32,158 nt of DNA, from NCBI GenBank assembly GCA_002354555.1, contig DELT01000045.1, forward strand, positions 1 to 32,158, written 5' to 3'. The notes beneath the pieces were generated by a model. The model was not told the origin of the DNA. It worked only from the letters and a program-made list of their open reading frames with translations, and made no database searches. A program made the position numbers and the translations under genes. Of the stretch, positions 147 through 11,553 are shown in pieces (the first letter of the stretch is position 1; each line of letters begins with the position of its first letter). The DNA comes from Methylophaga sp. UBA2689. GTDB lineage: Bacteria > Pseudomonadota > Gammaproteobacteria > Nitrosococcales > Methylophagaceae.

Positions 147-749
147 TCAGGGATAGGTGCGTAACTGACCTACCACAACGCCCTGGATGCTCAGTCGCTT
201 TGCATCAATCGTAACAGGATCAAAGTCGTCATTCGCTGGCATTAAGGTAATCGTTCCATCCTGGTTGACCAGCATGGTTTTCAGGGTTGCATCAAAGCCA
301 TCGACCAACGCTACAATCATGTCGCCATGTCTGGCCTGCCGGGTTGATTCAATCACTACATAATCACCTGGCATAATACCTTTGCCGATCATCGATTCAC
401 CACTGATTTTCAGGACGTATCGACCCTTGCCTTTAAACATGATGCCAAGATCAATTTCTGATTCATCGGCTACGGCCTCTATCAATCGGCCTGCTGCAAT
501 TTTTCCCATCATGGGAAGAATAAGTGATTGATCGTCGCCCTCCTGCTCAATCAACTGTAAGCCCCGAGTTCTTCCCGATAATCGCTCCAGATAGCCCCCG
601 TCAATTAACGCCTGAATATATCTGTGCGTGGTGCCTTGTGATTTGATTCCCAACCCTTCGGCTATTTCGGTAACCAAAGGTGCTTCACTATTTTCTTCAA
701 TGTAATGGCGAATAAAGTTAAGCGTATCTTGCTGTCTTTTAGTTAACAT
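147..749 (-). CDS. lexA: LexA-family SOS repressor/autoprotease
   Basis: This 200-residue protein has the usual LexA length and layout. An N-terminal winged helix-turn-helix (about residues 1-65) is followed by an S24 peptidase domain. The self-cleavage pair is Ala86-Gly87 in GKIAAGRL, the nucleophile is Ser119 in SGESM, and the general base is Lys157 in ATLKTM. By family knowledge it represses SOS genes and cleaves itself when RecA forms filaments on single-stranded DNA. The start is supported by AGGAG eight bases upstream. The recognition-helix region (KSQGTTHRYIQAL) is unlike that of E. coli LexA (SPNAAEEHLKAL), and no CTGT-N8-ACAG box is seen upstream, so the operator is probably of another type. 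It stands alone, without an adjacent sulA or imuA gene. Confidence 0.93.
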   Translation of the reverse strand: MLTKRQQDTLNFIRHYIEENSEAPLVTEIAEGLGIKSQGTTHRYIQALIDGGYLERLSGRTRGLQLIEQEGDDQSLILPMMGKIAAGRLIEAVADESEIDLGIMFKGKGRYVLKISGESMIGKGIMPGDYVVIESTRQARHGDMIVALVDGFDATLKTMLVNQDGTITLMPANDDFDPVTIDAKRLSIQGVVVGQLRTYP

Positions 750-885: not shown

Positions 886-894
886 TGGTATAAT
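886..894 (+). promoter_or_regulatory. Extended -10 promoter for the first small membrane protein
   Basis: TGGTATAAT is a perfect extended -10 element (TG-N-TATAAT). No good -35 hexamer sits 17 bases upstream, which is typical of extended -10 promoters. The start would be near 901, about 47 bases before the ATG at 948. Confidence 0.6.
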
Positions 895-947: not shown

Positions 948-1058
948 ATGTTCAAAAAAATTGATGAATTTTTGATGCAAAAATTTCCACATATCATCTT
1001 ACTCTTCACCGTTTTCTGGTTGGGGTTAGTGGCTATCGGGTGGTTTTTGTCTAAATAG
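948..1058 (+). CDS. Small single-pass membrane protein, 36 aa (unrecognised)
   Basis: The ORF encodes 36 residues: an amphipathic, charged N-terminus (MFKKIDEFLMQKF) followed by one hydrophobic helix of about 20 residues ending GLVAIGWFLSK. A purine-rich GGGG precedes the ATG by about six bases, and an extended -10 promoter lies about 55 bases upstream. The strongest support is the next small gene, whose 34-residue product aligns with it from residue 4 without gaps (K-I/L-D/E-E-F/W-L-M ... I/L-G-L-V-A-I/F-G-W/L-F-L/M-S). I do not recognise a family. Such proteins often act as accessory subunits of membrane complexes, but no partner is visible here. It is below the size most gene callers report. 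Confidence 0.6.
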   Translation: MFKKIDEFLMQKFPHIILLFTVFWLGLVAIGWFLSK

Positions 1059-1100
1059 TTACAACGGGTTTATTTCAGTTATTTACAACCCGGGTATGAT

Positions 1101-1149
1101 TTGATCCAGATCAATGTCTTCTAGCCCAGCCAGCATGATAATCAACAAC
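1101..1149 (+). promoter_or_regulatory. FNR/ANR-type site with class II promoter
   Basis: TTGATCCAGATCAA at 1101-1114 is a perfect TTGAT-N4-ATCAA FNR/ANR dyad, centred at 1107.5. A GATAAT -10 element at 1137-1142 would start transcription near 1149. That places the dyad at about -41.5, the textbook class II activator position. The transcript would lead into the 34-aa gene at 1190. This implies induction under low oxygen by an FNR-family regulator; that is inference from sequence only. Confidence 0.75.
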
Positions 1150-1189
1150 GAAAACTTGTTATTAAGCACCGTTGTTAAGGAGGAATATC

Positions 1190-1294
1190 ATGCACAAATT
1201 AGAAGAATGGCTGATGGAGCACTTCATTGAGTTTATTGTATTTATATCAGTCGCATGTATTGGATTGGTAGCATTTGGTTTATTCATGTCCTGA
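1190..1294 (+). CDS. Small single-pass membrane protein, 34 aa, FNR-linked (unrecognised)
   Basis: The 34-residue product starts MHKLEEWLMEHF, followed by one hydrophobic helix ending GLVAFGLFMS. A near-ideal ribosome binding site, AAGGAGG, lies seven bases before the ATG, which strongly argues for translation. It is a diverged tandem copy of the 36-aa protein encoded 131 bases upstream: same N-terminal charge pattern, same helix length and a shared GLVA-x-G motif. Unlike that gene it has its own FNR/ANR-type promoter. A role in a low-oxygen respiratory or membrane complex is plausible but unproven. It does not look like CydX, and I could not match it to a known oxidase small subunit. Confidence 0.7.
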   Translation: MHKLEEWLMEHFIEFIVFISVACIGLVAFGLFMS

Positions 1295-1920
1295 ATAGAC
1301 CATTTTGTATACATCAAAGGACTGGACTCGTCAGAGCTATTAATCCGGTTACAGTTTGGCTATTTGTTAAATAGAATTTAACTCGCTTTATCGGATAGCT
1401 GTCTGAAAGATTGTTTTGGTAGTCACTATTTAAAGTGCCGGATGTCGTAAGACTGAATATGTTTCAGGTTACGGTTTGCTTTGTGATGGTAAATTGGCTT
1501 CGTTCATGTCAGAACAATCAAATTGCAGATCGTTACAACTTAGCTGTTAATCGACATTTTCTGTTAAACGTTACAGCATTTCTTAGCATTAAATAAATCA
1601 CCTTATAATGCCTGCATTGTCAAATGAACAAATTTGGTGTAAACCCTCAAGCACCCTTAAATAGTATCTGATACACCAGTTTTGAAAGTACCAGATAACT
1701 TTATTTAGCTTTGTAAGCGTCGCTAAACTAGCTTTCTAAGTGCAATACTACAAAGTTGAATTTCTAGTGTTTCTTTGATGCAGGATGATCAGCGATACGT
1801 CCTCATAAATTACCATACAATGCGTTACCATCAATTGAACAAAATTGAGATTTGAGCTTATCTCTCACTGCCGTAAACTTTTAGTTGATCAATACAACCA
1901 TTTCAGCACATCATTATCTA
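1295..1920 (+). other. Long gene-poor stretch upstream of ppsR
   Basis: About 620 bases lie between the second micro-gene and the chosen ppsR start. No ORF with a convincing ribosome site or family was found on either strand. A good -10 hexamer, TATAAT, is at 1604-1609 with only a weak -35 (TCTTAG, 17 bases upstream), so a long leader of about 300 bases before ppsR is possible. No clear riboswitch fold or terminator was recognised. It may hold the control region for ppsR-ppsA or an untranslated RNA. Confidence 0.4.
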
Positions 1921-2811
1921 ATGAACGATGTAACCGCAAATAATAGTCAAAAAATCAGAAACGTATTTTTTGTATCAGATCGAACCGGTTTGACCGCAGA
2001 ATCGTACGGAAAATGTCTATTGGCGCAATTTCCTGATATTGAATTCGAAACAATTACGCTGGCTTTTGTCGATACCAAAGAAAAAGCAGAAGATGCCTGC
2101 GAACAAATTAACTCGTTATGTTCAGAATCTGATTTACCGCCGTTGGTTTTCAGCACCTTAGTGAATAACGAAGCTCAACAAATCATCGAGGACTGTGATG
2201 GTTTTGTAATTAGTTTGTTTCATCAGTTTATCGGTTCAATGGAAAAATTTCTCGAGGTGGAATCCTCGCAGAAACTTGGTGTCTCCCGGATTACAATAAG
2301 TGATACAACTTATCAAAAACGTCTGGATGCGATTGATTATGCACTGACGCATGATGACGGCATTCGTCCGGATCAGTATGAAGAAGCGGATGTCATTTTA
2401 GTCGGTGTTTCACGTTGTGGTAAAACCCCCACCAGTTTGTATCTAGCAATGAACTTCTCCCTCAAAGTGGCTAACTATCCGTTAACCGTTGAAGATTTGG
2501 AAGCTGCAGAATTGCCAGATTATCTGAAAATTCATCAGCATAAACTTGCAGGTTTAACGATTAAACCGGTGCCGCTGAGCCGAATTCGCCGTCAACGCCG
2601 CCCTGATAGTAATTATTCCTCTTTAGAGATTTGTCAGGCAGAATTAGATAAAGCAATGATTATGTTTGATAAAGTTGATATTCCGGTATTTGATACGACG
2701 AATACTTCCATTGAAGAAATATCCAGCCGTGTTGTTCGCTCCTTGGGGCTTGCGCGTGAGCGCATCCGCGAATCAACCATTACATTTAATAAATCTAACA
2801 AGTTAAGGTAG
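1921..2811 (+). CDS. ppsR: PEP synthase regulatory protein (bifunctional kinase/pyrophosphorylase, DUF299)
   Basis: The product is 296 aa from this ATG. It carries the family's N-terminal [13 protein letters not shown] motif and a P-loop [11 protein letters not shown] at about residues 162-172. Family members inactivate PEP synthase by ADP-dependent phosphorylation of a threonine next to the catalytic histidine, and restore it by phosphate-dependent removal. The frame also opens at a TTG 36 bases earlier, but the family is normally about 270-280 aa and conservation begins near FFVSD, so the ATG is preferred; neither start has a clear SD. Seven bases separate it from ppsA, its substrate, so the two are almost certainly one operon. 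Confidence 0.93.
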
Positions 2812-2818
2812 AGGTGTC

Positions 2819-5176
2819 ATGACCGAATATGTAATTCCACTCGACAAATTGTGCATGGACGATGTCGGCAGAGTAGGCGGAAAAAATGCTTCATTGGGTG
2901 AAATGTTGCAGAATTTAGCTCCTTTGGGGGTAGCCGTTCCAAGCGGCTTTGCGACCACGGCGGATGCTTACAGAGAATTTTTAAAGCATGACGGACTACA
3001 AGACCAGATAAACGAATTATTACGTGAACTAAATGTTGACGATGTCGTTGCACTTCAGAAAGCGGGTAAAACCATCCGTGAATGGATCATGACCATTCCT
3101 TATCCGGAAAAAATGGAAGCCGCAATTGACGAGGCTTATGAAAAGCTAGTAGAAGAATACGGTACTTCGACCAGCTGGGCTGTTCGTTCATCTGCCACTG
3201 CCGAAGATTTACCTGATGCATCATTTGCCGGACAACAGGAAACCTTTTTGAATGTTTCTGGCTTAGACCATATCAAGTTTGCCATTAGAGAAGTCTTTGC
3301 TTCCCTGTTTAACGATCGGGCGATTGCCTATCGTGATCACCAAGGATTTGAACACAGCGAAGTTGCTTTATCTGCCGGTATTCAGAAGATGGTCCGCTCT
3401 GATATTGCTTCTGCCGGTGTAGCTTTTACTCTGGATACTGAAAGCGGTTTTCGTGATGTGGTCTTTATCACTGGCAGTTACGGGCTTGGCGAGATGGTGG
3501 TTCAAGGCGCGGTTAATCCCGATGAATTTTATGTACATAAAACCACATTAACCGCCGATCGTCCTGCGGTATTACGCAGAACTCTGGGCCAGAAAGCGCT
3601 CAAAATGGTTTACTCAGGTGATGCAAAATCACCGGTGAAAACTGTTGATGTTGATCACGAAGAACGTTTGCATTTTTGTCTGAATGATGAAGAAATTGAA
3701 TCATTGGCCCGTATGGCGATGATTATTGAAAAACATTACCAAAGACCAATGGATATCGAATGGGCAAAAGATGGTAATGATGGTCAGATCTATATTGTTC
3801 AGGCTCGGCCGGAAACGGTTGAAAGTCGCAGTGTAAATGTTACTGAGCAATTTATTTTAAAAGATAAAGGTGAATTGTTGGCTCGCGGTCGCGCCATCGG
3901 TAGAAAAATTGGCAGTGGCCGGGTTCGGATTCTGAACAGCCTTGATCAAATGGATCAGTTTGAAGCCGGTGATGTATTATTAACAGATATGACGGATCCT
4001 GATTGGGAACCGATTATGAAAAAAGCGGCGGCGATTATTACCAATCGTGGTGGTCGTACCTGTCATGCCGCTATCATTGCACGTGAATTAGGCATCCCGG
4101 CTGTAGTAGGCTGTGGCGATGCTACTGAAAAAGTTGCTGAGGGTATTTCGGCAACAGTATCCTGTGCCGAAGGTGATGAAGGTTATATTTATCAGGGACT
4201 GCTTGAATTTGAACATCGTGTTCAGTCTTTAGACCAAATGCCTGAGTTACCAGTCAAAATTATGATGAATGTGGGTAATCCTGACCGTGCATTCAGCTTT
4301 TCACAATTACCTAATGATGGTGTTGGTCTGGCCCGGCTTGAATTCATTATCAATAACATGATCGGTATTCATCCTAAAGCGCTAATGGCAGCAGATAAAA
4401 TGGATGCCGAAGTGCAACAGGTTATCCGCGAAAAAACCACTGCTTATGGCGACCCGGTTGAGTTTTATATCAGCCGTATTACTGAAGGTGTATCGACAAT
4501 TGCTGCAGCGTTTTATCCGTCCAAAGTGATTGTGCGTATGTCGGACTTTAAATCGAATGAATACGGCAACCTCGTTGGTGGCGCTGAATTCGAACCACAT
4601 GAAGAAAATCCAATGATTGGTTTCCGTGGTGCAGCACGCTACAGTTCTTCGGAATTTGAAGCCTGCTTTGAATTGGAATGTGAAGCAATCAAGCGTGTCC
4701 GTGATGTCATGGGATTAACCAACGTTGAAGTCATGATTCCTTTTGTCCGTACACTGACCGAAGCTGAAGCTGTCATCAAAATTCTGAAAAAGAATGGTCT
4801 GGAACGCGGCAAAAATGGTCTGCGTTTGATCATGATGTGTGAATTACCCTCCAATGCAGTACTGGCTGATCAATTCCTGGAATTCTTTGATGGCTTTTCA
4901 ATCGGTTCTAACGATATGACTCAGCTGACATTGGGTCTTGACCGGGATTCTGCACAAATTGCCGCAGCATTTGATGAACGTGACCCAGCGGTATTGGCAA
5001 TGCTGGATATGGCGATTAATGCCTGTCACAAAGCAGATAAATACGTCGGTATCTGTGGACAGGGTCCGTCAGATCATCCTGATTTGGCAGCATGGCTGCT
5101 TGAGCGTGGAATCAGTAGTATTTCATTAAATCCGGATACAGTTGTCAGTACCTGGCAAGCATTATCTAAACAGTAA
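2819..5176 (+). CDS. ppsA: Phosphoenolpyruvate synthase
   Basis: The protein is 785 aa (E. coli PpsA is 792) and converts pyruvate, ATP and water to PEP, AMP and phosphate, feeding gluconeogenesis. The N-terminal ATP-grasp-like domain shows [10 protein letters not shown] (about 20-29) and [22 protein letters not shown]. The swivelling phosphohistidine is His416 in [15 protein letters not shown], and the threonine two residues before it is the expected PpsR target. The C-terminal TIM-barrel ends with GICGQGPSD, whose Cys746 is the expected acid/base residue. GAGGTG precedes the ATG. It follows ppsR in one operon and is closed by a strong terminator. Confidence 0.97.
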
Positions 5177-5200
5177 TACTGTTTACAGTGATTCCACACA

Positions 5201-5228
5201 AAATGAGCCCTCCGGGGCTCATTTTTTT
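5201..5228 (+). terminator. Rho-independent terminator of ppsR-ppsA
   Basis: A stem AAATGAGCCC / GGGCTCATTT closes a TCCG loop and is followed by an uninterrupted T tract, 25 bases after the ppsA stop codon. Confidence 0.92.
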
Positions 5229-5233
5229 ATGGG

Positions 5234-5252
5234 TTTAGGGCGTGTTTAATTC
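5234..5252 (+). repeat. Head fragment of the dispersed repeat
   Basis: TTTAGGGCGTGTTTAATTC matches the head of the repeat at 1-118 except for one substitution in the core 13-mer. It lies between the ppsA terminator and the 3' end of the convergent alkC-like gene, and its last bases overlap that gene's stop codon. No longer element is visible here. Confidence 0.5.
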
Positions 5253-6393
5253 AGCCAAGTACTAGATTCACCATAGTTTGGTTATGAACCACCCCATTGA
5301 TAAGTATTTCAATGGGGTGTTGGCCAGCATAATATTGCCGGGTAGTCAGTTGTAAAAATCCGTGTGACTTTTTCAGATAAACACTTTCCCTCGCTGGCAA
5401 TGTAATATTTTTCCATTTATAAACTTTGGCGGTGGTTTTGCCGTTGCTTTTGACATGCCATACACGATAATCAACTACCAGTTGTTGAGCCTGACTGGCT
5501 TTAGAATGGATTGACAACAGCATTTCCAATGTTTGCCCCAATGTCACATCTTGCTCAGTTAAAACAAATTCAACCTTAACCGCTGGTTTGTCACTGTAGC
5601 CCAGTAATGGGAATACAGATGGTTCACCTGCCTTAATCAGACTACGAAGCCCGTGACGGATAATCCAGCGACGTTGTGGTGTGGAATTTTCCAGCCACTC
5701 ATGACATATATCGATCACACGCTGAGGATGATCCTTACTAATGTCATTTAAATTATTGGCAACCGATTTTTGAACATATTTACTTTTGTCATCTTTAAGC
5801 TGAGTGAGTATTTCAAATACCGGCCGCGGGTCTTGTTTTAATGCCTTTAAATGCCCGCCCCAAGGCAATCTTGGTCGCATTCCCTCTGATGCCAGTCGCC
5901 GGACATGCTCATTATCATCCTCACACCACCGCAATAATTCTTTAAAGGTCAGCTCAAAATGCTTTTCTATGTAAGGCCTGATAGCAAATTCTGCAGTAAA
6001 CAATGGTGTCAAATGCTCTAACACATCCAGTGCGATTGTCGGCTGTTGCAGCCCTTGCTTTCCGGCATAATCAATTAATGGCCAGGCCATAAAACTATGC
6101 CAGCCTTTACCGGGTTCCAGATTGGGCCAGTGCTCGGCTATCTGCTTCAACCATTTGGCATTCACTGAGAAATCATTAACCAGTAGCACTGCCAAAACCT
6201 CACTAAGATGGTTTACTCGAGCTTTAAGTGACATGCCATCCAATTGATAGATGGCCATAGCCCTGAACTTATTATCAGGAAAATCCGGTTGATACTGTTT
6301 GATTAATCCAGCTAACGTCTCGATAGATTTGGCATTTATATGATCTTTTAATAAAGCTGGGGTAGATTCAGCTAACAGATCAGACTTTGCCAT
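5251..6393 (-). CDS. AlkC-type 3-methyladenine DNA glycosylase with Ig-like C-terminal domain
   Basis: The 380-residue product is a HEAT-like repeat protein with the AlkC/AlkD signature region RLASEGMRPRLPWGGHLKAL, then KSVANNLNDISKDHP and WIIRHGLRSLIKAG. The family excises N3-alkylated purines without flipping the base. After about residue 270 the sequence turns beta-rich (VKVEFVLTEQDV through the C-terminus), consistent with the Ig-like domain known in some AlkC proteins. The start is set at the ATG at 6393, preceded by a GAGAG stretch. An in-frame ATG nine codons earlier lies in the U tract of the upstream gene's terminator and has no SD. It is convergent with ppsA. Substrate specificity cannot be read from the sequence. 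Confidence 0.82.
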   Translation of the reverse strand: MAKSDLLAESTPALLKDHINAKSIETLAGLIKQYQPDFPDNKFRAMAIYQLDGMSLKARVNHLSEVLAVLLVNDFSVNAKWLKQIAEHWPNLEPGKGWHSFMAWPLIDYAGKQGLQQPTIALDVLEHLTPLFTAEFAIRPYIEKHFELTFKELLRWCEDDNEHVRRLASEGMRPRLPWGGHLKALKQDPRPVFEILTQLKDDKSKYVQKSVANNLNDISKDHPQRVIDICHEWLENSTPQRRWIIRHGLRSLIKAGEPSVFPLLGYSDKPAVKVEFVLTEQDVTLGQTLEMLLSIHSKASQAQQLVVDYRVWHVKSNGKTTAKVYKWKNITLPARESVYLKKSHGFLQLTTRQYYAGQHPIEILINGVVHNQTMVNLVLG

Positions 6394-6420
6394 TGGAATT
6401 AACTCTCTTTTTTCAGACAT

Positions 6421-6449
6421 AAAAAAACCGTGGCTCGAAGGCCACGGTT
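6421..6449 (-). terminator. Terminator of the PEP-CTERM gene
   Basis: AACCGTGGC (6426-6434) pairs with GCCACGGTT (6441-6449) around a six-base loop. On the minus strand a run of seven T follows. An A run on the other side makes it potentially bidirectional, although only the minus-strand gene ends nearby. Confidence 0.88.
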
Positions 6450-6474
6450 TTTATTTTACGGTATTACGAGAGAA

Positions 6475-7221
6475 TTATGCTTGTTGCGCTTTTGCTCTTC
6501 TGCGCATTGCCATAAAGCCCATCAGACCTGAACCGAATAACCATACTGCTGCTGGTAAAGGTACTTCTGAAGGCATTGATGTAAATTGGCCAAGCAATTT
6601 TACTGTTTTGTCTTTGCCTTCTTTCAAGAAAAGTTCATCAACAAGTTGGATACCTTTTTTGGTATGAATTCCAAAACCTGTTAATTCAAAGTAATAATCT
6701 GTACCTTCATGACTTAAAAATTTAGTGGGCACAGAATTCAGGAAAGTAACGCTATCACCTTGAGGATTAACTGTATTATCGAGTGAAAAACCATATGTAA
6801 AGGTTTCAGAAAATAATGACGGTGAAGTGAAATCCAAAGTCAATGCAAAATCTACAGTTTCAGCCTGGGTACCAGAATAAATAATGCCGTTATTGAAATT
6901 CATGTAACCGGCAATAAAAGTCTGATTAACATCGGTATTAAAATTATTACCTTGATAAGTCAATGAACTTGGGTCTGAATAATGATCGACCGTAACTTTT
7001 TTATAACTACACCCCCAATAACAAACCTTTTCATATTCGTATGTAGAATGAGTGTAAGCACCTTCACCCCATGTGAAATGGTCGGTTCCAGTCCCAGTCG
7101 TTACCATACCAGATGGGCCAGTAGGATTCTCAAATGTTCCTGATGTGCTACCTTGGAATGTGGCAGCGTTGGCCGAGATAGAAGCAACTAAAAACGTCGC
7201 TAAAAGTAGCAAATTTTTCAT
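6475..7221 (-). CDS. VPLPA/PEP-CTERM sorted exported protein (choice-of-anchor K type)
   Basis: The 248-aa protein has an N-terminal signal peptide (MKNLLLLATFLVASISANA) and a C-terminal tripartite sorting signal. That signal consists of VPLPAAVWLFGSGLMG, a short hydrophobic helix and a basic tail RRRAKAQQA. Such signals are processed by exosortase in organisms that make an extracellular polysaccharide matrix; no exosortase is in this window. The middle, with FTWGEG, SSLTYQGNNF and GYMNFNNGIIYSGT, resembles choice-of-anchor K domains. AAGGAA lies just before the ATG. The leader carries a cyclic-di-GMP riboswitch, so the protein is probably made as part of the biofilm or sessile programme. It appears monocistronic, with its own terminator. 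Confidence 0.85.
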   Translation of the reverse strand: MKNLLLLATFLVASISANAATFQGSTSGTFENPTGPSGMVTTGTGTDHFTWGEGAYTHSTYEYEKVCYWGCSYKKVTVDHYSDPSSLTYQGNNFNTDVNQTFIAGYMNFNNGIIYSGTQAETVDFALTLDFTSPSLFSETFTYGFSLDNTVNPQGDSVTFLNSVPTKFLSHEGTDYYFELTGFGIHTKKGIQLVDELFLKEGKDKTVKLLGQFTSMPSEVPLPAAVWLFGSGLMGFMAMRRRAKAQQA

Positions 7222-7243
7222 AAAATTTCCTTTTCAGAAAAAA

Positions 7244-7310
7244 GCAACCCGGCTATCTTTTCATTAAGACCCGTGGTTTTCCGTCTCTTGGTTCACACCA
7301 AGGTTGGCAC
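7244..7310 (-). ncRNA. Cyclic-di-GMP-I (GEMM) riboswitch
   Basis: On the minus strand the leader reads GCCAACC, then a hairpin CTTGG/CCAAG with a six-base loop. It continues with GAGACGGAAAACCACGGGTC, a variable loop, and AGATAGCCGGGTTGC. These match the conserved GEMM-I blocks: the AACC-to-GGTT closing helix, GGACGCAAAGCC-like core, and the second hairpin with its GCCGGGTT end. The aptamer ends about 22 bases before the start codon. The linker can fold CTTTT with AAAAG across the SD, suggesting control of translation initiation. The on/off direction cannot be told by eye. Confidence 0.85.
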
Positions 7311-7355
7311 TCAGTTAATTAATTGTTGCAGTTCAGACTTAGAGCAACGGTGCCT

Positions 7356-7437
7356 ATAATAGAGAAAAAAAACCTTAAAACTATTGTACCTTGGTACTAT
7401 CAGTAGCTTTTTCGCTTAATTAATCACAATTTGTGAT
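7356..7437 (-). promoter_or_regulatory. Promoter and two palindromes upstream of the riboswitch
   Basis: On the minus strand a TATTAT -10 (7361-7356) has a poor -35 (ATAGTT) 17 bases upstream, which suggests activator dependence. A palindrome GTACC-TT-GGTAC (7386-7397) is centred about 42 bases before the predicted start near 7349. A second dyad, ATCACAA-T-TTGTGAT (7423-7437), is centred near -81. Neither matches a site I can assign with confidence. The first has the position of a class II activator site. Confidence 0.45.
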
Positions 7438-7471
7438 ATTTTTAATGATTCTATTACTAGTAATTATTTAT

Positions 7472-8800
7472 TCACTTTTTGAATAATGCGATAGATTCAA
7501 CGTGACTGGTATGTGGAAACATATCCATGATGCCGGTCTGAACAAGCGTATATCCATATTGATTTACTAGCTCACCGGCATCACGTGCCAGAGTGGCGGG
7601 GTTACAGGAAACGTAAACAATAGTTTCTGCACCCAATTCAGCAATCTGACCCAGCACCTCAAAGGCACCGCTTCTGGGAGGATCAAGTAATACTTTTGTG
7701 AATCCTTCCTGTGCCCATGGATAATCTTTTAATTGGGTTATCGTTAGATCAGCCATTTCAAATACAGCGTTGTCCAAACCATTCATTGCGGCATTGCGCT
7801 GTGCATGTGCCACCAGAGATTTGTCCCCTTCTACCCCTATGACACTACTTACACGTTTTGCCAGTGGCAGCGTAAAGTTACCCAAACCACAAAACAAATC
7901 CAGTACCCGATCACTTTCCTGCAAATCAAGCAATTCAATCGCCTTGGCAATCATTTTATGATTGATACCGGCATTGACCTGGGTAAAGTCGCCCGGGGCA
8001 AATTCCAGTCTGAGACCGTCTTCAGGTGCATAATGCAGTTGTGGTGCTTCAGGCCATAACGGACTGACGGTATCCGGCCCGCCTGATTGAAGATAAATCC
8101 ACAAATCCTGTTGCTGACCATAGTTGATCAATTTTTGCTTATCCGTTTCGCACAATGGATCCATATTTCGGAAAACCAAAGCTGTGTTGACATCATCCAT
8201 CGCCACTTCTATTTGTGCAATTCGGTTATATGCTTCCAGGCCAGCGATCATCTCTCCCAACTCTTCCAGGCGTAATCCAACGCGTGGGTCCAGTACTTCA
8301 CATTGCGTTAGCTCAGCCAGATAAGGCGAACCTTTCTCTCTAAAGCCGACCAGTACTTTTTCTTTTTTGGTTACATAACGGACACCCAATCGCGCTTTAC
8401 GTCGATAGCCCCATAAAGGACCGGTTAACGGAGCTAACCAGTTCTCTGGTGTGAGTTGTCCAAAGTGCGATAGCTGTTCCTTTAAAGTGTCTTGTTTCAG
8501 GCTTAATTGAGCTTCTGGTGCCATATGCATCAAACTACAACCACCACAAACACCAAAATGCTGGCATTTTGCTGCAACGCGATCAGCGGAGGCGGACTCA
8601 ACCGAGATTACTTTGGCCTCATCATATTTTTTATGCAGCCGGGTATACTTAAATGACACATTTTCACCCGCCAGCGCTCCGTCGACAAAGACGGTTTTAC
8701 CCTCAATTCGGGCAATGCCACGACCATCATGAGAAAGACTCTCTATAGTTGCCTGAACAGCTTCTGTAGGGAGCCGTTTTCTGTGATTACGTCGTGCCAT
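7472..8800 (-). CDS. rlmD: 23S rRNA (uracil-1939-C5)-methyltransferase
   Basis: The 442-aa protein begins with a TRAM domain (about residues 13-70). It then carries the iron-sulfur cysteines Cys79, Cys85 and Cys88 (KCQHFGVCGGC), with a likely fourth in LTQCEVLDP. The methyltransferase domain has the SAM-binding motif VLDLFCGLGNFTLP and the catalytic nucleophile in VYVSCNPATLARD. Family members methylate U1939 of 23S rRNA. AAAGG lies about 10 bases before the ATG. The gene is separated from the upstream ydbH/ydbL group by a terminator, so it probably has its own promoter, although none was identified. Confidence 0.95.
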   Translation of the reverse strand: MARRNHRKRLPTEAVQATIESLSHDGRGIARIEGKTVFVDGALAGENVSFKYTRLHKKYDEAKVISVESASADRVAAKCQHFGVCGGCSLMHMAPEAQLSLKQDTLKEQLSHFGQLTPENWLAPLTGPLWGYRRKARLGVRYVTKKEKVLVGFREKGSPYLAELTQCEVLDPRVGLRLEELGEMIAGLEAYNRIAQIEVAMDDVNTALVFRNMDPLCETDKQKLINYGQQQDLWIYLQSGGPDTVSPLWPEAPQLHYAPEDGLRLEFAPGDFTQVNAGINHKMIAKAIELLDLQESDRVLDLFCGLGNFTLPLAKRVSSVIGVEGDKSLVAHAQRNAAMNGLDNAVFEMADLTITQLKDYPWAQEGFTKVLLDPPRSGAFEVLGQIAELGAETIVYVSCNPATLARDAGELVNQYGYTLVQTGIMDMFPHTSHVESIALFKK

Positions 8801-8828
8801 TTGTTAAACCTTTAAACGAAAATTACAT

Positions 8829-8865
8829 AAAAAAAGTCCGGTCATACTTTTGCATAACCGGACTT
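8829..8865 (-). terminator. Terminator downstream of the YdbL-domain gene
   Basis: AAGTCCGGT (8834-8842) pairs with ACCGGACTT (8857-8865). On the minus strand the hairpin is followed by a run of seven T, ending about 30 bases before the rlmD start. Confidence 0.88.
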
Positions 8866-8881
8866 AAACTTGATTGAAAAT

Positions 8882-9481
8882 TTATTTTTGCTGCCAGCTA
8901 CCGCCTTGCTGATACCACCAACCTTTGGTTGCATTGCTTATCCAGCGTCTGGCAAAGGTTTCCTGGATCTCAGATTCCCATTCAGGATGACCATTGGCAC
9001 GGGCTATTTCAGCGTATAAGGCGTTACGATCCTGATTCTCTTCTGCAATCAAAGTATTTACCGTATTACGATCTTTTAATGGCACCGCAGAGGCATCACG
9101 CAGAGTAATCAAACCGTTACTGGTTAACCCTACAGCCCCAGTTTGATAAAACGGATGCAGTTTCTCATGGCGCTGTTTCATTTTTGCCTGCAAGGCATTA
9201 ATCGCCGGCGAATTAATATTCAAATTGGCTTCTGCCTGTGCAGGAGTGACCAACCAGTTCAAGACCTGCATAGCAAGTGGTAGATTCTGTTTTAAAACAC
9301 TACTGGTATCTTCCGATTCAGTCGGTTGTGGCTGGTTCGGGTTATCACGTCCCCAAACATCCTCAATAATTCGATCTGCAGCTTTTTCAGCAGCCGCTGC
9401 CGGAAAATAGATATTGATTGTCACGCAGGAAATCAGCATTAACCCTGCGGTACTGCCCATTAACCATTTTAATAAACCCAT
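8882..9481 (-). CDS. YdbL-domain (DUF1318) lipoprotein
   Basis: The 199-aa product starts with a lipoprotein signal whose lipobox LISC places the lipidated cysteine at residue 19, followed by VTINIYFPAAAAEKAAD. The C-terminal 100 residues match E. coli YdbL in layout: GAVGLTSNGLI, then NTLIAEENQDRNALYAEIAR, then a tryptophan-rich end. In E. coli three proteins work together: YdbH (inner membrane to periplasm), YnbE (outer-membrane lipoprotein) and YdbL (periplasmic, keeps YnbE from self-assembling). Here one protein seems to carry both the lipoprotein anchor and the YdbL domain. It lies 11 bases after ydbH, with AAAGGAAA before its start. Confidence 0.82.
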   Translation of the reverse strand: MGLLKWLMGSTAGLMLISCVTINIYFPAAAAEKAADRIIEDVWGRDNPNQPQPTESEDTSSVLKQNLPLAMQVLNWLVTPAQAEANLNINSPAINALQAKMKQRHEKLHPFYQTGAVGLTSNGLITLRDASAVPLKDRNTVNTLIAEENQDRNALYAEIARANGHPEWESEIQETFARRWISNATKGWWYQQGGSWQQK

Positions 9482-9492
9482 TCGATTTTCCT

Positions 9493-11553
9493 TTATTGAA
9501 TAACTGGCCCGTCACTTTGACTGACCGCTTTTAATCTGGCGATTAATTCTGGCCAATCCACCTCGCGGTTATAACCAATCACATTAATCCATGGTGGCAG
9601 ACCTCCACCCTTAACAATATAGTACCCCTGCTCTGCGGTTTCTATACCATCCATTTGACAGATAGAGTTCATCAAACGACAACTTAGACCAATTTTGCTA
9701 TAGGAAAAATCTTCAAACAGGCCCATAAAGCCACGCGATAAAATGGCGGCCGGACCACCACCAATCTGCGAAAGATTATTGACGGCACGCTGACTTATTC
9801 GCCGCCGACCTGGATCCTCTTCTGGTGTCTCAAATAATGCATCAAATTGCACCGGTTGCCAGTTTGATAAGCGTAAATTATGGATACGACCATCTAATTT
9901 GCCGCTTATATTACCAAAATCGAAAGTATTGGTGAGCGTCTGTAGATCCAGACGGTTAATATCGATATTGGCATACAACTGAGGCAGGCTTCCGAATGGC
10001 TGTTGTAAACGGAGATCTCTAATCACCGTTGTGCCATCAAATAATTTCAGTAACAATGCGCCATCGACAGTGATCTCTTCATCAGCATAACTGACTTTGG
10101 GGATCATGCCGGACAATTTACCTTGAAGCGTTGGCCAGCCCAGTAAAGGACTTAATTGATCCATTGAAATCGGGCTTAATAATCCCTCAAACTGCCAGCT
10201 TCTTCCCTGCTCTTCATCAAGACTTAATTGAAAGTCATTCAAAGATAATGCTCCATCCAGAATAGGTAATGACAAATTGGAAAATTGAATCTGATTCTGA
10301 CTCGCTTCTGCCTGTAAGGTCGAACCACCCAATGGCAAGGATAAAATAGAAGCCGAGTTCCAGCGTAAATCAATCGGTATCACTGACGCCTGATTAGTCC
10401 AGCCAAGTTTTCCTTCGAGGTTATCAATAGCAAATCGTCCAGCATCATCGACTATCGTGACCGACTGTAAATTCATTTGAAACTGATATTGCTCTGGCTG
10501 CCATTGCAAACTGGCGGTTAACTCCCCGCTGGTTTGCAAATGACTCAGGGACGAACCTGGAATAAACGGTTGCAGCCAGTCTTTATATAATTGTGCTAAA
10601 TCGGTGCTGCTGAGATCCATTTGCAGATGCGTTAATTGCGCTGCCTCACCATTTAGCTGTGCATTGGCTGAAATAGAAGTGCTTTGTGCAAATTCAATAT
10701 CACTTATCTGCCATTTTTTGTTGGCATTATTAAATTCTCCTTCACTGCTTAACGTGACCGATTGTTCAGACAAATCCAAAAATATCGGTTCAAAATAGGT
10801 CTGGCCCTTATCGATATTCAGCGTTTGCTGCCATGACCAGCGGTCATTTTCGATTTGCAGCGCCAGCTGTATTTGGGCCGCCAGGGCTTCGCCTGCATAA
10901 CTTCCGGTAGAATCAGCAAACATTACATCTCTTAGTTTTCCGGAAACCTTTGCCGAGGTTAAGCGTGTTTGATGACCAGTAAGTTCTGCATCAACATTGA
11001 TTACGGCATTGATATTCCATTGCGAAAGCCTCTCCAGTTGCTTTTCATTAACGTATGGACCGATAAACTTAAACAAACTGTTTAACGCAATATTTTTCCC
11101 GGTCAGCTCAGCTTGCCACTGTCCCTGTTGGTAATCTGCCTGCACATCCATGTTGCCTTGATCCAGCTGGATGCCTGTTAAAGTCAGTTGATAATTTTCT
11201 TCTTCTGCACGAGATTTAATATTGAAGGCTATTTTTTGGTTTCCCAAAAGGGCATGGCTGAAATCCAGTTGACCAGACTGACAATCTATTTGCCCGGATA
11301 ACCAGCGTAAGGTTTCACAGCGCAGTCTGACATTTGATAGCTGACCTACTGGTTCGGTTAACTGCACCTGTTTGGCAGTGGCGGTAACCGCTAACCCTGT
11401 GGATTGTAAATTTATTTCAACTTGCAAATCAGTGATGTCGATTTGCTCACTCGACCAGGAACCGATTTGAATAGCCATCTGTTCTATGGCCCATACCGGG
11501 GCAATGGCTACGAATAACAATAAGGCTAGTGAATATCTGGCCCTGGCTAACAT
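9493..11553 (-). CDS. ydbH: YdbH-family AsmA-like protein, probable intermembrane phospholipid transport
   Basis: The 686-aa protein has an N-terminal hydrophobic signal or anchor (MLARARYSLALLLFVAIAPVWA) and a long, beta-strand-rich body of repeated alternating patterns. It ends with the conserved YdbH/DUF block containing LDGRIHNLRLSNWQP, FETPEEDPGRRRISQRA and GGGPAAILSRGFMGLFEDFSYSKIGLSC. E. coli YdbH (about 880 aa) is thought to form a hydrophobic groove that carries phospholipids to the outer membrane, redundantly with TamB and YhdP. This copy is shorter. Its ATG overlaps the cysM stop (TAATG), and it is followed by the YdbL-domain lipoprotein, the partner expected from E. coli. Confidence 0.85.
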   Translation of the reverse strand: MLARARYSLALLLFVAIAPVWAIEQMAIQIGSWSSEQIDITDLQVEINLQSTGLAVTATAKQVQLTEPVGQLSNVRLRCETLRWLSGQIDCQSGQLDFSHALLGNQKIAFNIKSRAEEENYQLTLTGIQLDQGNMDVQADYQQGQWQAELTGKNIALNSLFKFIGPYVNEKQLERLSQWNINAVINVDAELTGHQTRLTSAKVSGKLRDVMFADSTGSYAGEALAAQIQLALQIENDRWSWQQTLNIDKGQTYFEPIFLDLSEQSVTLSSEGEFNNANKKWQISDIEFAQSTSISANAQLNGEAAQLTHLQMDLSSTDLAQLYKDWLQPFIPGSSLSHLQTSGELTASLQWQPEQYQFQMNLQSVTIVDDAGRFAIDNLEGKLGWTNQASVIPIDLRWNSASILSLPLGGSTLQAEASQNQIQFSNLSLPILDGALSLNDFQLSLDEEQGRSWQFEGLLSPISMDQLSPLLGWPTLQGKLSGMIPKVSYADEEITVDGALLLKLFDGTTVIRDLRLQQPFGSLPQLYANIDINRLDLQTLTNTFDFGNISGKLDGRIHNLRLSNWQPVQFDALFETPEEDPGRRRISQRAVNNLSQIGGGPAAILSRGFMGLFEDFSYSKIGLSCRLMNSICQMDGIETAEQGYYIVKGGGLPPWINVIGYNREVDWPELIARLKAVSQSDGPVIQ

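Follow-up and report, generated by a model that had tools for sequence, protein, structure and literature searches.

Tandem micro-protein genes between lexA and ppsR of a Methylophaga species, the second preceded by a conserved FNR-type box: candidate isoforms of a small cbb3 oxidase accessory subunit

What two adjacent open reading frames of 36 and 34 codons might be doing between lexA and ppsR, and whether they are genes at all, is the question raised by a 32,158-nucleotide stretch of DNA from Methylophaga sp. UBA2689, the whole of which is referred to here as the window. The pair lies between lexA (147–749, minus strand) and ppsR (1885–2811); the names lexA, ppsR and ppsA were assigned by eye from the translations. 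A first-pass annotation, made from the letters of the window, had described the two frames as homologous membrane micro-proteins, the second with an AAGGAGG ribosome site and an FNR-type promoter, and had suggested that they are isoforms of an accessory subunit for a membrane complex used at different oxygen levels. Both frames and the ribosome site were located again (Table 1). BLASTP aligned ORF1 and ORF2 with 14/33 identical residues (42%) and no gaps, which upholds the homology and the gapless alignment, although the alignment begins at residue 3 of ORF1 and not at residue 4 as had been proposed. When the genome itself was searched with ORF1, ORF2 was the sole other credible copy; a third match (E 1.55) contains an internal stop and was discarded as no credible copy.

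Table 1. Features of the micro-protein locus, in window coordinates.
Feature	Position	Strand	Basis
Extended -10 TGGTATAAT of ORF1, predicted FNR-independent promoter	886–894	+	TGNTAT conservation
ORF1, 36 aa, predicted one-helix micro-protein	948–1058	+	Conserved frame; candidate standing isoform
FNR-type box TTGATCCAGATCAA, perfect dyad, centre 1107.5	1101–1114	+	Conserved in place
-10 element GATAAT, predicted class II promoter	1137–1142	+	Offset +29 from box centre
Ribosome-binding site AAGGAGG of ORF2	1177–1183	+	Sequence; 6 nt before ORF2 ATG
ORF2, 34 aa, paralogue of ORF1	1190–1294	+	Conserved frame, FNR-type box; candidate FNR-controlled isoform
Terminator-like hairpin spanning the end of ORF2	1276–1302	+	Weak: 1 found versus 0.6 expected (shuffles)

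Two further features of the window are recorded here. The genes ppsR and ppsA together occupy 1885–5176, and the ppsA of the source species and its nearest kin is only approximately 55% identical to the ppsA that adjoins the micro-protein genes elsewhere in the family, and it may be a replacement. Further along (6475–7221, minus strand) there is a gene for a secreted protein with the C-terminal end VPLPAAVWLFGSGL...RRR, which we take to resemble a PEP-CTERM sorting signal.

A family profile (A1, 30 rows; presence called at E <1e-9, with six matches at E 0.01–0.1 left out) detected the micro-protein in 44 of the 57 family genomes, all of them species representatives and many of them metagenome assemblies, and in none of six genomes of the sister family. 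Among 369 genomes of the class, the only match outside the family (G377) covers 23/34 positions and lies antisense to another ORF, and it was set aside as chance. Two copies are present in 38 of the 44 holders and one copy in the other six (G024, G025, G026, G028, G068 and G070). Pairwise comparisons among 18 members of the genus, restricted to pairs with dS <1.5, gave a median dN/dS of 0.14 for ORF1 (maximum 0.28; 45/153 pairs) and of 0.29 for ORF2 (maximum 0.91; 41/153 pairs), as under purifying selection. Conservation in related genomes and a dN/dS below 1 had been named at first pass as the marks of real frames, and both were found. In the near-complete genome G022 (L019, ~1495–1610), the run of A after the ATG of ORF1 is shorter by one A and the frame is shifted, through real decay, slippage or a sequencing error, and ORF2 and its box are intact.

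Neither ORF1 nor ORF2 had a match in Pfam or NCBIfam, and the 30 members compared with these models gave only stray single-member matches at E 0.027 or worse. PDB searches returned no relative (best E 1.4), and Rfam had no match within 700–1950. A search of 5.8 billion predicted proteins, which reaches close relatives only, returned one cluster with ORF1 as the query and three with ORF2, all of them unnamed, and no description of the pair was found among the open-licence papers searched.

The comparison of upstream regions covered 74 copies, drawn from 40 of the 44 holders (G064, G068, G070 and G079 were left out); the ORF2 set comprised 37 copies with at least 130 nt of upstream sequence, the 38th (G063), with 51 nt, being left out. 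The motif TTGATNNNNATCAA with at most one mismatch was present 60–130 nt before the start in 36/37 ORF2 copies, 20 of them perfect, the exception being that of G062 with two mismatches; in the same range it was found in 0/36 ORF1 copies. The FNR-type site assigned to the second ORF at first pass is conserved across genera. The box flagged on the ORF1 of G005 was the product of a less strict pattern, and counting mismatches does not confirm it. The hexamer at +29 from the box centre matches TATAAT at 4.23 of six positions on average, whereas the mean for all offsets is 1.91 (sd 0.55); in 22/31 boxes it is the best hexamer within +24 to +35. The start of the ORF2 transcript is predicted near 1149, which would put the centre of the box at -41.5, the position of FNR at class II promoters according to PMC7349173; TTGATNNNNATCAA centred near the predicted -41.5 is the arrangement of an FNR class II promoter. 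The FNR of the genome itself has C35-x2-C38-x5-C44, C137 and ETVSR, and comparison with PMC7349173 shows that Cys 35, 38, 44 and 137 and ETVSR match the oxygen-sensing FNR pattern. ORF1 has a different signature: the extended -10 motif TGNTAT occurs in 34/36 ORF1 upstream regions (shuffled mean 3.4) versus 5/37 for ORF2.

A perfect dyad is by itself weak evidence, as 30 occur in the genome, 25 of them inside ORFs. The five between ORFs are that of ORF2, one before an acetate-kinase-like gene, one between a cation-ATPase-like gene and another gene, one before an HlyD-like gene and one more (gene names by eye). Because most lie inside ORFs, no weight was given to the dyad on its own, and perfect dyads were rejected as a means of finding the regulon; the evidence for the ORF2 box is its conservation in place. 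In two further species, G061 (L059) and G072 (L034), an FNR box lies directly downstream of the ORF1 extended -10, a placement that would be expected to give FNR repression of ORF1 and thereby reciprocal control of the two isoforms.

Candidate partners were profiled in the 57 genomes by way of ccoN, FNR, cydA and aa3 ctaD, with ccoN and ctaD scored as present from 300 bits and weaker matches taken as other haem-copper oxidases. ccoN was present in all 44 holders and missing in 4/13 non-holders (Fisher p 0.0018), and among genomes of at least 90% completeness it was present in 32/32 holders and missing in 2/5 non-holders (p 0.015); FNR showed an association almost as good (42/44 holders versus 8/13 non-holders, p 0.0049), and the p values for all four genes ignore kinship. 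No association was found with cydA (21/44 holders, one by a partial match, versus 5/13 non-holders; p 0.75) or with aa3 ctaD (16/44 versus 3/13; p 0.51), and on the latter value the aa3 oxidase was rejected as the partner. In 13 holders cbb3 was the only oxidase found of the cbb3, bd and aa3 types.

The four genomes that lack ccoN (G033, G071, G076 and G077; G071 is 81% and G077 84% complete) are all non-holders, and each has the ppsA locus with full flanks and no micro-protein gene. G033, in which aa3 is present and cbb3 and FNR are missing, has a frameshifted remnant upstream of ppsA: an additional base disrupts its reading frame, and other residues stand at the F13 and G31 positions. Its sister G068 (100/99 in a 19-row ppsA tree), which has ccoN, carries an intact gene where G033 has the remnant. 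On the ppsA tree no fewer than two separate losses are required, and the number of independent losses is small. Nine non-holders do possess ccoN; in three of these (G004, G021 and G032) the contig ends at the locus, and the other six are 55–82% complete. One of the six, G074, has approximately 750 nt upstream of a divergent ppsA with no gene in it, and this may be a true absence of the micro-protein despite ccoN. In the loci that were read, the micro-protein genes never adjoin cco genes.

The main (best-scoring) ccoN is itself preceded by an FNR box with no more than one mismatch in 33/41 genomes (32/40, at 151–189 nt before the match, plus the source genome, whose ccoNOQP operon has TTGATCTGGATCAC); G064 and G078 were left out of this survey. 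The 8/40 that lack it are G024, G026, G028 and G068, together with the two-copy genomes G007, G030, G059 and G073, in which altered remnants of the box were seen by eye at the main ccoN. G070 was checked separately and its ccoN has no FNR box. The single-copy genomes without an intact micro-protein box (G024, G026, G028, G068 and G070) all lack the ccoN box, and in G025 the single copy is boxed and ccoN is boxed too. Tabulated for 39 genomes, the micro-protein box against the ccoN box gave 31/0/4/4 (p 0.00085), in a table that omits G070, G063 and G079 and in which two assignments, G062 boxed and G024 unboxed, were made manually; reversing one or both of them gives p 0.0039–0.022. Given that G026, G028, G068 and G070 form one clade in the ppsA tree, this co-loss of boxes rests on about two events. 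The pattern fits an order of loss in which FNR control of cbb3 went before ORF2, ORF2 before cbb3 and cbb3 before ORF1. It is because of the co-occurrence, the co-loss and the FNR box held in common with ccoN that we propose the cbb3 oxidase as the partner. The conserved frames under purifying selection, the paralogy, the box with its spacing, the box at ccoN and the shared presence and loss with ccoN are all direct observations on the genomes.

The source genome has a second, orphan ccoN (L092, G000 contig 90, ~5087–10274), with no adjacent ccoO or ccoP and no FNR box; a small ORF of one helix comes after it, and an NnrS-like gene lies farther along (names by eye).

With regard to the age of the pair, a tree of the micro-proteins, in which the columns are few and many forks unresolved, places 33/36 unboxed rows in one group (94/95) that crosses genera, with the first copy of G034, the copy of G024 and the truncated G063 among the boxed rows. 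As the unboxed rows group across genera, both the duplication and the switch are most likely older than the genera. The single copies are of the ORF1 type in G026, G028 and G068 and of the ORF2 type in G024 and G025. In G010, ORF2 has been relocated to an unrelated neighbourhood (L119:2808–2993) and has taken its box along, 77 nt ahead of the start codon: box and ORF2 behave as one cassette. Copies of G024 and G025, like those of G010, sit in other neighbourhoods. G024 (L123, L124 and L169) is a genome of 1.1 Mb, rated 100% complete, that has no FNR gene, no cydA and no aa3 and keeps cbb3 and one micro-protein copy. The box of that copy has one mismatch and its ccoN has no FNR box, which we read as promoter decay after loss of the regulator.

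AlphaFold2 predicts ORF1 to be one helix (residues 2–35, mean pLDDT 87.9); a lone helix matches any fold, and such a prediction cannot name a partner. F13 is present in 71/71 and G31 in 70/71 distinct proteins, and conservation is periodic at 100 degrees (p 0.0004 for the hydrophobic part, 0.0006 overall). F13, I17, F20, W24, L27 and G31 share one face, as for a helix that is packed on a partner. The ORF2 of the window deviates at two positions of this face, with Ile for F20 and Cys for W24; most family members have the conserved Trp at the site of this Cys.

Our preferred reading, to which we give a probability of roughly 0.6, is that ORF1 is the standing and ORF2 the FNR-induced, low-oxygen isoform of one small accessory subunit of the cbb3 oxidase. 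ORF1 would be made from its FNR-independent extended -10 promoter and would pack the F13/I17/F20/W24/L27/G31 face on the oxidase core. As oxygen falls, FNR would bind at -41.5 and activate ORF2, as well as the ccoNOQP operon by way of a similar box, so that the newly built oxidase would then carry the ORF2 isoform; in the two species with an FNR box downstream of the ORF1 -10, ORF1 would be shut off simultaneously. Within this scheme we infer membrane insertion, FNR binding, the change in expression and the contact with the oxidase. Of what the first-pass annotation had proposed, the coding status, the duplication and the FNR-type box on one copy are sustained by conservation across genera; for its membrane complex cbb3 can now be named as the candidate, with membership in that complex a matter of inference. 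The wider claim, that bacteria exchange dedicated oxidase-subunit isoforms according to oxygen level, with one cbb3 core taking ORF1 at high oxygen and FNR-induced ORF2 at low oxygen, both vanishing with cbb3 and belonging to a 35-aa family homologous to no known subunit, is one that we hold tentatively and at somewhat less than even odds.

The main rival has the micro-proteins serving cbb3 biogenesis or another partner in the low-oxygen chain, and not as subunits of the finished oxidase; they could help in assembly or cofactor insertion, or act as a link to the bc1 complex or to a c-type cytochrome. Co-occurrence and co-loss cannot separate a subunit from such a helper, and the genes do lie apart from the cco operon; in our judgement, however, two differently controlled isoforms and the helix stripe fit a lasting packing partner better, and we regard the helper as unlikely, at about one chance in four. 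Less probable again is a partner outside the oxidases, with an FNR-linked membrane micro-protein modulating some transporter or sensor of low-oxygen life and the link to ccoN a case of hitch-hiking on loss of the low-oxygen module. The association with FNR would agree with this, as would the absence of both FNR and ccoN from G033, G076 and G077. It is countered by the unboxed ORF1, which is also lost or decayed where there is no cbb3, by G024, which retains cbb3 and one copy without FNR, and by G071, which has FNR and cydA and lacks both ccoN and the micro-protein, albeit in an assembly of 81% completeness.

Other explanations carry very little weight beside a cbb3 subunit. Small proteins of one helix do occur in bd oxidases, but a CydX-like subunit of cytochrome bd is strongly disfavoured by the 23/44 holders that have no cydA. 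Short, hydrophobic, tandem frames near lexA and ppsR–ppsA might bring to mind a hydrophobic toxin of type I or a cis-acting element of lexA, ppsR or ppsA, and one of the 30 members does match a toxin model (E 0.31); conservation through the family under purifying selection and the copies in other neighbourhoods make this just as improbable. Chance open reading frames, a reading to which the short length and the want of a family model had lent some colour, have next to no probability against conserved frames, dN/dS well below 1 and conserved promoters.

Oxidase micro-subunits are hard to spot in genomes, and the pair is a new and testable candidate that comes with an evolutionary record of retention, of relocation together with its switch and of decay once cbb3 was lost. 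CydX and other bd-oxidase micro-subunits are small proteins of one helix and resemble the micro-proteins in both respects, but the latter have no association with cydA and no Pfam or NCBIfam match. CydX is named in PMC12350097. CcoQ (FixQ) is likewise a small one-helix cbb3 component, but a separate FixQ-type gene is present in the genome's own ccoNOQP operon, where CcoQ matches the FixQ model (33.9 bits, cut-off 29), and the micro-proteins have no match to that model; with CcoQ already in the operon, we rejected it as their identity.

The gene for another small cbb3 subunit, CcoM, lies outside the cco operon, and we take chain N of PDB 5djq, a putative uncharacterized protein to its depositors, to be this subunit. 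To our knowledge there is no isoform pair of CcoM. According to PMC10433244, CcoM is a subunit of 36 aa in the cbb3 oxidase of Pseudomonas stutzeri and is said to be essential under oxygen limitation. The micro-proteins share with it their length, one hydrophobic helix, a gene outside the cco operon and the tie to cbb3 and oxygen limitation, and in the 57 genomes profiled they occur only with a cbb3 oxidase; they differ in that their charges are at the N terminus and those of CcoM at the C terminus. Profile A1 matched none of the PDB chains at E ≤10, though 5djq_N was in the set, and hhalign against 5djq_N gave a probability of 0.4%; homology to CcoM was rejected on these results.

Yeast COX Va/Vb and mammalian COX4-1/COX4-2 are, according to PMC5448071, isoforms of oxidase accessory subunits, one of which is induced by low oxygen. 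The likeness would be that of two isoforms of one accessory subunit with one for low oxygen, although the proteins are unrelated, and those systems have eukaryotic regulators and an aa3-type enzyme where we have a 35-aa bacterial helix and an FNR box. If the preferred reading is true, a terminal oxidase of bacteria would exchange isoforms under the control of oxygen, and with two natural variants it would become directly testable how so small a helix affects cbb3 (affinity, stability or supercomplex contacts). By analogy, then, the pair is best read as a probable bacterial counterpart of yeast COX Va/Vb.
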